From Candidatus Buchananbacteria bacterium (lineage in GTDB: Bacteria > Patescibacteriota > Patescibacteriia > 2-01-FULL-39-33), in the NCBI GenBank assembly GCA_903863425.1, contig CAIPBY010000012.1:1-38539 (forward strand): 38,539 nt of DNA, read 5' to 3'. Under the pieces are notes generated by a model. That model saw only the letters and a program-made list of their open reading frames with translations, searched no databases and had not been told where the DNA came from. Position numbers and translations under genes: made by a program. Shown here piece by piece: positions 24,312 through 26,482 of this stretch (position 1 is the first letter of the stretch; every line of letters begins with the position of its first letter).

Positions 24312-24695
24312 ATGTCAAACCTTCAAAAAGTAGTGGATTTGATCAATAAAACTGGGGATAAAGCCATAGTTTTGGATCAAAATGGCGATCCTAACTATGT
24401 TTTGATGGCTTTCAGTGACTATGAACAGCTAATTGTGGGTAAATCAGAGGTTCGTGGCTTGACAGAAGCTGAACTTTTAGATAAGATTAACCGTGATATC
24501 GCAGTCTGGAAAGAAGGTCAAAAATCGCAAGATTTAGACCATGAAGGTCACGATATTCCCAGAGATTTATCTAATTTTAGAAGCTTTGAAGAGGCATTTG
24601 ACGCTGACATAGATCAGCTCAAAGAAGAAGAGGATTTTGATAATGAAGATGAGGAAAAAGACGAGGATAGGTTCTATTTTGAAACAGTAGAATAA
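24312..24695 (+). CDS. Phd/YefM antitoxin-like protein without an adjacent toxin gene
   Basis: N-terminus LQKVVDLINKTGDKAIVLDQNGDPNYVLMAFSDYEQL resembles the Phd/YefM fold; acidic C-terminus. Confidence 0.5.
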   Translation: MSNLQKVVDLINKTGDKAIVLDQNGDPNYVLMAFSDYEQLIVGKSEVRGLTEAELLDKINRDIAVWKEGQKSQDLDHEGHDIPRDLSNFRSFEEAFDADIDQLKEEEDFDNEDEEKDEDRFYFETVE

Positions 24696-24712: not shown

Positions 24713-24740
24713 TTGTAAAATTAATTAATTGTGTTATAAT
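24713..24740 (+). promoter_or_regulatory. putative tuf promoter
   Basis: TTGTAA, 16-nt spacer, TATAAT with TGT immediately upstream (extended -10). Confidence 0.6.
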
Positions 24741-24771
24741 AATTAAGCATTTAAAAATACTAATAAACCTG

Positions 24772-24860
24772 TTAGGTCTGGGTAAAACCTTGTAATCAAT
24801 CCGCCCCGTGTCTGCCTCTGGCAGATGGTGCGGACGAACCAGGGGACCTAATTGACAAGG
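24772..24860 (+). promoter_or_regulatory. candidate pseudoknotted 5' leader RNA of tuf overlapping the SD
   Basis: TTAGGT+CTGG (24772-24781) pairs CCAG+ACCTAA (24839-24851); CCTTGT+CAAT (24788-24800) pairs ATTG+ACAAGG (24851-24860); internal TCCGC/GCGGA and TCTGCC/GGCAGA. Confidence 0.5.
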
Positions 24861-24870
24861 AATAATCACC

Positions 24871-26058
24871 ATGGCAGAACAATTTAACAGATCCAAGCCA
24901 CATGTAAATGTGGGAACAATCGGTCACGTTGACCACGGAAAGACTACTTTAACAGCAGCCATTCTTAACACTTTAAGTGATCGAGGATTTACTGCTCAGC
25001 ACAAATCTGTTGATCAGATTGATGCCGCTCCAGAAGAAAAGGCTCGTGGTATTACTATTGCTACTGCTCACGTTGAGTATGAGACAGAGAAAAGACATTA
25101 TGCTCACGTCGATTGCCCAGGACATGCTGACTATATTAAAAACATGATTACTGGTGCCGCTCAGATGGATGGCGCAATTTTGGTTGTAGCCGCTACTGAC
25201 GGACCTATGCCTCAGACTAGAGAGCATATTCTTTTGGCTAATCAGGTTGGTGTTCCTCATATTATTGTTTTCATCAATAAGGTTGATCAGGTAGATGATG
25301 AATCATTAGTTGATTTAGTTGAAGAAGAAATTAGAGATTTACTTAAGAAATATCAATTCGACGGAGATAATGCTCCAGTTATTCGAGGTTCTGCCTTGAA
25401 AGCTTTGCAAGATCCAAAGGGTCCCGATGGCGATGCTATTATGAAACTTATGGATGCTTTGGATTCTTATATCCCTGAACCTCAGAGAGCAACTGACCAG
25501 CCATTCTTGATGCCTATTGAAGATGTCTTCTCTATTGAAGGCAGAGGAACTGTAGTAACCGGAAGAATTGAAAGAGGTATTGTCAAGATAAATGAAGAAG
25601 TTGAATTAGTTGGTTTAGCTGATACCAAGAAGACTGTTGTTACTGGAATTGAAATGTTTAACAAGAATCTTGACGAAGGCAGAGCCGGTGATAATGCTGG
25701 CGTTTTGCTTCGTGGCATTAAGAAAGATGAAGTTGAAAGAGGACAGGTGCTTTGCAAACCAGGATCAATTACTCCACATAGCGAATTTGAAGCTGAAGTT
25801 TATGTCTTATCCAAAGAAGAAGGTGGAAGACATAAGCCATTTTTCAAAGGATACAAGCCACAGTTTTATATTAGAACTACTGATGTAACTGGAGAAGTTG
25901 AATTACCAGAAGGCAAAGAAATGGTTATGCCTGGCGATACTGTCAATTTGAAAATCAAATTGGGTAAGACCGTGGCCATGGAAGAAAAGATGAAATTTGC
26001 TATCAGAGAAGGCGGACACACTGTTGGAGCTGGCGTGGTGACCAAAATAATCAAATAA
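24871..26058 (+). CDS. tuf: elongation factor Tu
   Basis: [56 protein letters not shown] upstream. Confidence 0.98.
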
Positions 26059-26070
26059 ATATTTTCACAA

Positions 26071-26096
26071 CAGAGACGTCTTTCGGGGCGTCTCTG
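26071..26096 (+). other. hairpin between tuf and rpsJ (no U-tract)
   Basis: CAGAGACGTC / GGCGTCTCTG stem; following sequence TATCGTG is not U-rich. Confidence 0.5.
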
Positions 26097-26104
26097 TATC
26101 GTGA

Positions 26105-26482
26105 ATGTTTAAATACACTGATAATTACAAAAAAATGGCGTTAAAAACTACTTCTGCTACACCTGAAAATGATAAGCCACATCAGAGAATCAGGATCAAA
26201 ATCAAAGCTTACGATCACAAGATAATCGATAATTCTGCCAAAAAGATTATTGATACTTGCCAAAGATTCGGAGCTAGAGTTGTTGGTCCGGTACCGCTTC
26301 CTACAGAAAAGAAGAAATACACAGTCAATAAATCGACTTTTGTACACAAGGATAGTAGGGATCAATTTGAGATGAGGGTTCATAAGAGATTGCTTGATAT
26401 ATTCGATCCAAATTCTCAGACTATTGATGCTCTTATGAGTTTGAACTTGCCAGCAGGAGTAAATGTAGAAATAAAAATGTAA
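26105..26482 (+). CDS. rpsJ: 30S ribosomal protein S10 (in-frame alternative ATG at 26135)
   Basis: [63 protein letters not shown]. Confidence 0.95.

Follow-up and report, generated by a model that had tools for sequence, protein, structure and literature searches.

A conserved structured leader RNA of tuf in one class of Patescibacteria and its likeness to the T-box discriminator

Comparison with described systems

The T-box discriminator is composed of two helices, A1 and A2, flanking a 7-nt bulge, in which the 5' UGGN pairs with the NCCA end of tRNA and the 3' ACC stabilises the structure (PMC7583486). UGGN is invariably located beside A1 in known T-boxes, since the duplex formed with the tRNA end stacks on A1 (PMC7583486). 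In this study, comparison of upstream sequences indicates that the tuf mRNA of one class of CPR (Patescibacteria) begins with a conserved structured leader RNA, and the evidence for its structure is comparative, not folding energy. The stretch of DNA analysed, called the window below, is a Patescibacteria contig of 38,539 nt carrying the str-S10 cluster, with rpsL, rpsG, fusA, an ORF resembling the Phd/YefM antitoxins, tuf, rpsJ, rplC and so on. The tuf leader shares with the T-box discriminator (RF00230) the two stacked helices, a bulge present on the 5' strand only and a fully paired opposite strand. UGGN constitutes the first four bases of the bulge and adjoins the lower helix in the 58 members found. 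The leader position is also shared, and translational T-boxes likewise act next to the Shine-Dalgarno (SD) sequence.

There are also differences. The T-box bulge is the 7-nt UGGNACC, whereas that of the tuf leader has 9 nt, UGGNUAAAA, without the 3' ACC. Stem I, the specifier and Stem II are absent from the tuf leader, no conserved sequestrator was found, and the purine string of Stem III was not recognised when the region upstream of helix P1 was read by eye. T-boxes precede amino-acid genes, whereas the motif described here precedes tuf. Searching with RF00230 at E<=1 gave no match, either at the leader in the window or at 20 tuf loci that bear the motif. The N of a T-box bulge matches the discriminator base of the cognate tRNA. 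In the 58 tuf leaders this base is A in 24, G in 19, C in 12 and U in 3, and it does not match the majority A73 among the 33 tRNAs recovered from the window's genome (A73 in 19, U73 in 9, G73 in 3 and C73 in 2). A fourth pair would thus appear not to be tuned to most tRNAs, as just 3 leaders have U at this position though A73 is found in 19 of 33 own tRNAs. Since Stem I is lacking and the bulge departs from that of T-boxes, the tuf leader was not filed among them. It is not a member of the T-box family, and by analogy it may work in a T-box-like manner.

Canonical T-boxes are present in the same class. Matches to RF00230 at E<=0.001 were found in 58 of 145 class genomes, six of them above the gathering score, and nearly all that could be aligned display the UGGNACC bulge. 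The window's genome has one before a trpB-like gene (identified from its sequence), and relatives of the family have T-boxes before thrS (L279, L283 and L284), whose UGGA matches the U73 of the tRNA-Thr genes in the window's genome. A stripped-down version for tuf is plausible, given that canonical reading of tRNA ends by UGGN occurs in these genomes. Among the open-access papers searched, none was found to mention T-boxes in Patescibacteria. Canonical T-box leaders on other contigs of the window's genome lie at G000:C23:2671-2875 (L268) and G000:C7:15058-15363 (L269), with further ones in the class (L263-L267).

Three other systems come close in part. Leaders of ribosomal protein operons, such as the L4 leader of the S10 operon and the S15 leaders, are also structured RNAs that immediately precede an operon's first gene, and the operon at hand holds tuf and the S10 cluster; unlike them, the tuf leader is matched by no Rfam leader family and precedes tuf, not rpsJ. 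In the internal loop L15 of RNase P, GGU pairs with the RCCA end of tRNA. The likeness lies in the G-G of an RNA loop being read by tRNA CCA ends and is taken as a lead only, whereas L15 is a two-sided internal loop within a large ribozyme. Among bacterial proteins, EF-Tu is one of the most abundant, and its amount must match the tRNA pool. In E. coli, tufB is autoregulated and the str operon is under the control of S7. Feedback on the EF-Tu level would be the common element, whereas no related leader structure was recognised there and the present motif was seen in just one class of CPR.

The conserved fold and its distribution

The consensus order of the leader is P1, the 9-nt bulge UGGNUAAAA, P2, a variable loop, P2' and P1', and in the 58 members P2' and P1' are contiguous with no unpaired base opposite the bulge. 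Class genomes and then 100 additional tuf upstream regions were sampled, and each was screened for the fold. Membership was defined by a P1 of 4-8 bp, a bulge UGG...AAA, a P2 of 3-8 bp and contiguous P2' and P1'. A total of 58 distinct leaders fit, after removal of two chance fits of the pattern (L029 and L144) and with the doubtful L123 retained. By our tally, with structural variants included, the fold is present in about 60 of 132 leaders examined in the class, roughly 45%. One fold is common to the tuf upstream regions of all ten genomes of the family and to those of distant CPR. The bulge has 9 nt in 45 of the 58 members and ranges from 9 to 11 nt, reaching 12 nt in permuted variants. Its U, G, G and three 3'-most A residues are invariant in the 45 aligned members, and its 3' end is AAAA in most of the 58. 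The distance from the end of P1 to AUG has a median of 17 nt (range 8-25, mostly 15-20; 58 members). The 5' arm of P2 is usually CUC or CCC, resembling an anti-SD. The P2 loop is the most variable part; in relatives its length runs from 3 to about 70 nt and is 3-8 nt in many. The part of the leaders upstream of P1, read by eye, is often rich in A/U.

In the window, all features are on the + strand. A promoter-like element, TTGTAA-16-TATAAT with TG before the second hexamer, is located at 24713..24740 (10 of 12 positions in a consensus scan, a consensus match only), and TATAAT is similarly placed in family members. This element would put the start near 24747, about 25 nt before P1, and give a leader of about 125 nt. 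P1 is formed by TTAGGTC (24772..24778) and GACCTAA (24845..24851), and P2 by CCTTG (24788..24792) and CAGGG (24840..24844), with the two 3' strands abutting each other. Between the 5' strands is the one-sided bulge UGGGUAAAA (24779..24787). The 47-nt P2 loop (24793..24839) is not a conserved part; in the minimum-energy fold it contains an extra hairpin of TCCGC (24800-24804) with GCGGA (24830-24834) and TCTGCC (24811-24816) with GGCAGA (24820-24825). The SD sequence AAGGA (24857..24861) is outside P1, which ends 19 nt before the AUG of tuf (EF-Tu, 395 aa; 24871..26058), an ORF with 83-88% identity in nine family relatives. The next gene is rpsJ (ribosomal protein S10; 26105..26482). Folding with the bulge kept unpaired gives -34.7 kcal/mol, which within error is the same as the -34.9 reached without constraint, and this fold is itself the minimum for a slightly longer stretch. 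The folding energy of the window leader is unremarkable (z = -1.31). No intrinsic terminator was found in it.

The pairing is supported by compensatory changes. In 23 leaders aligned as a whole, 94.0% of cells are paired, with 82 double-change cells compared with 25.8 in shuffles (reached in 0 of 500), and the pairing falls to about 52% if the partner is shifted by one base. In 45 cores with loops removed, among them the window, which was placed by aligning the cores and not by the covariance model, 92.0% of cells are paired and 159 double changes were counted against 47.9 in shuffles (0 of 500). The proportion paired is 91.9% in P1 and 92.0% in P2. Changes on both sides occur at 8 of 8 pairs in P1 and 4 of 5 in P2, where the first C-G pair is invariant. 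These alignments were selected to fit the structure, and a scan blind to the bulge sequence was therefore also run. It gave 33 of 142 leaders with a score of at least 26, whereas 0.6 are expected from mononucleotide shuffles. All of these 33 begin the bulge with (U)GG and 30 end it in AAAA; the conservation of UGG and of the A-run is thus no product of the search pattern.

Variants were also found. Several lineages (L098, L113, L178, L182 and L186) have an additional hairpin that separates UGG from the A-run; in L113, L182 and L186, UGG stays at the edge of the helix and the A-run stays before the next one. Such variants fit what is expected of a ligand site. Two leaders (L134 and L155, family f44) apparently carry a permuted motif, in which a bulge UGGNUNACAAAA separates P2' from P1' on the 3' strand, below the hairpin; UGG and the A-run probably keep their places beside the helices there too. 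The permuted form is a reading of the sequence, and the minimum-energy fold of L155 lacks it. In the tuf upstream region L088 (G003:C10), an A/T-rich insert of about 150 nt was observed in the P2 loop, with P1, the bulge and P1' intact.

A covariance model gave matches at E<=0.05 in 77 of 384 class genomes. The checked matches below E 1e-4 all precede tuf, except one in a coding sequence. Among 384 genomes sampled across the phylum, matches at E<=0.001 were confined to genomes of the same class. Wherever the next gene is recognisable beside the motif, tuf is followed by rpsJ. The model misses members owing to strict filters and its penalty on long loops; the window is one of them, probably because of its 47-nt loop. 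A direct DNA search of 58 genomes with the window leader returned the window alone, which indicates conservation in structure and not in overall sequence. Other candidate copies of the motif were rejected: the best non-tuf match of the model (G014, E 9e-5) is in the coding sequence of a DnaA-like protein, and the remaining ones fall in coding sequence or on hairpins without relation to the motif.

The window has no match at gathering score among the 4227 families of Rfam 15, and matches at permissive thresholds, both at the window leader and at motif-bearing tuf loci, are chance matches, none of them credible. No description of a tuf leader RNA was found in the open-access papers searched, and an earlier description in subscription journals is possible. 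The tuf leader is a new RNA family. The original prediction of a novel structured leader belonging to tuf was thus borne out, with no Rfam family, 58 members and strong covariation, and all strings quoted in it are found in place. The first of its two helices corresponds in part to P1. Its 6-bp portion TTAGGT/ACCTAA is the core of P1, with compensatory double changes at every pair, whereas the proposed extension CTGG/CCAG (24778-24781 with 24839-24842) can be drawn but is built from invariant bases of the bulge UGGNUAAAA, and its covariation score in 45 relatives (0.246, against 0.223 in shuffles) was reached by 49 of 500 shuffles. The nested hairpin it described is present in the minimum-energy fold but sits in the most variable part of the leader. 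It did not contain P2 (CCTTG/CAGGG), nor the invariant bulge of 9 nt that separates P1 from P2.

Proposed function and rival explanations

By analogy, the tuf leader is tentatively regarded as a Stem-I-less, T-box-like candidate sensor of tRNA CCA ends, which we consider plausible but short of probable. In the proposed mechanism, UGG of the bulge would pair with the CCA-3' end of free tRNA, that is, tRNA not on EF-Tu or the ribosome. The UGG–CCA duplex would stack on P1, and the A-string would support the complex. Any tRNA would serve as the signal, as Stem I and a specifier are lacking. Occupancy of the bulge would alter the access of 30S to the adjacent tuf start, and EF-Tu synthesis would thereby be coupled to how many free 3' ends of tRNA are available, by activation, as in translational T-boxes, or by repression. 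A distance of about 17 nt before AUG corresponds to the upstream edge of the 30S footprint. P1 ends at this edge, so its occupancy or melting could gate initiation. The fuller proposal, that such a codon-independent RNA responds to the CCA ends of free tRNA and thereby sets the level of EF-Tu, possibly with the whole tuf-S10 operon, is held with more reserve, as a possibility by analogy.

A CCA partner for UGG in the loop or downstream is absent in 42 of 58 leaders, and the partner of UGG is therefore probably in trans. The strong motif matches precede tuf, which encodes the tRNA-carrying factor, and this was counted for the tRNA-end model, as were the covariation of P1 and P2 around an invariant bulge and the outcome of the scan blind to the bulge sequence. 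Counted against it, besides the departures from T-boxes in N, ACC, Stem I and Stem III, were the chance of about 1 in 64 that UGG opens a bulge, and the result that no conserved alternative fold acting as a sequestrator was found.

The main rival is an autogenous protein site, at which EF-Tu or a ribosomal protein of the downstream tuf-S10 operon (S10, L3, L4 ...) in excess would bind the bulged helix, block tuf initiation and act by polarity on the ribosomal protein genes. We consider it somewhat unlikely. The leader heads an operon with tuf and then rpsJ wherever recognisable, and the distance between the end of P1 and AUG is tight, about 17 nt. Bulged helices beside the ribosome site are typical of ribosomal protein leaders, and the tuf leader resembles them in this respect. 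However, the motif adjoins tuf and not rpsJ, its invariant part is a linear UGG...AAA that was not recognised as an rRNA mimic, and the own 23S rRNA region lacks UGGNUAAAA, with 16S missing from the assembly. A riboswitch of a new class for a metabolite, in which the bulge would be the pocket for a small molecule such as a nucleotide signalling translation capacity, would account for a highly conserved bulge between helices that vary and covary, an arrangement common among riboswitches. Most classes of riboswitch, however, control several genes, whereas in the 384 class genomes the motif is associated with tuf alone; this and the very small pocket make the explanation improbable.

The two-state SD switch of the original prediction is more doubtful still. 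Here the 5' arm of P2 would quit P2 and pair with the SD, as a sequestrator or as a pseudoknot with P1. CCUUG of the window can indeed pair with CAAGG of the SD region at -8.2 kcal/mol, L110, L112 and L192 allow similarly strong pairing, and the usual CUC or CCC arm is anti-SD-like. The predicted second helix (CCTTGTaatCAAT with ATTGACAAGG, containing the SD) uses the P2 arm CCTTG and thus competes with P2; it can be drawn in the window, but as a nested alternative it costs about 6.6 kcal/mol (-28.1 vs -34.7). Across members, the P2 arm pairs with its own SD region at -3.70 kcal/mol, no better than with foreign ones at -3.82 (permutation p = 0.73), and of the 9 members that lack an SD-like sequence, 6 still have the CYC arm. 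Covariation thus upholds the P1 core and fails the SD-burying helix, which is not conserved, and the pseudoknot is not supported. The absence of any regulation, with a constitutive stem and A-rich bulge that keep the ribosome site open or stabilise the abundant tuf mRNA, is likewise very improbable. The fold is stable alone and outside the SD, and leaders are often A/U-rich in their 5' part, but this explanation leaves the invariant UGG and the strict one-sided bulge across dozens of genera unaccounted for.

If the leader does sense tRNA ends, their codon-free reading would represent a novel, minimal way of sensing tRNA and bear on how T-boxes arose or get stripped down. It would also mean direct RNA control of the ratio of EF-Tu to tRNA in uncultivated ultra-small bacteria, and add to the few regulatory RNAs described in Patescibacteria. 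Even with a protein ligand, the leader would be a new, well-supported RNA family at the head of the principal operon for translation in a large bacterial class.

Several minor observations concern the locus and its genome. An upstream ORF or leader peptide, with GGN-UAA in the bulge, was considered and rejected: a stop follows GGN in 42 of 58 leaders, 9 of these 42 have an in-frame start, and this is ATG in 2. No 16S rRNA match was found in the assembly of the window's genome (G000), and its 23S match spans 3771 bases against a model of 2925 positions, which suggests an insertion. The gap between tuf and rpsJ contains a perfect 9-bp hairpin ACAGAGACG/CGTCTCTGT without a U-tract (26070-26097), possibly a processing or ribosomal protein site. 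The small ORF between fusA and tuf (24312-24695) has a weak match to the Phd/YefM antitoxins (E 1.1e-5, below the gathering score). Its acidic C-terminus ends in a YFETVE-like motif, which recurs before tuf in relatives.
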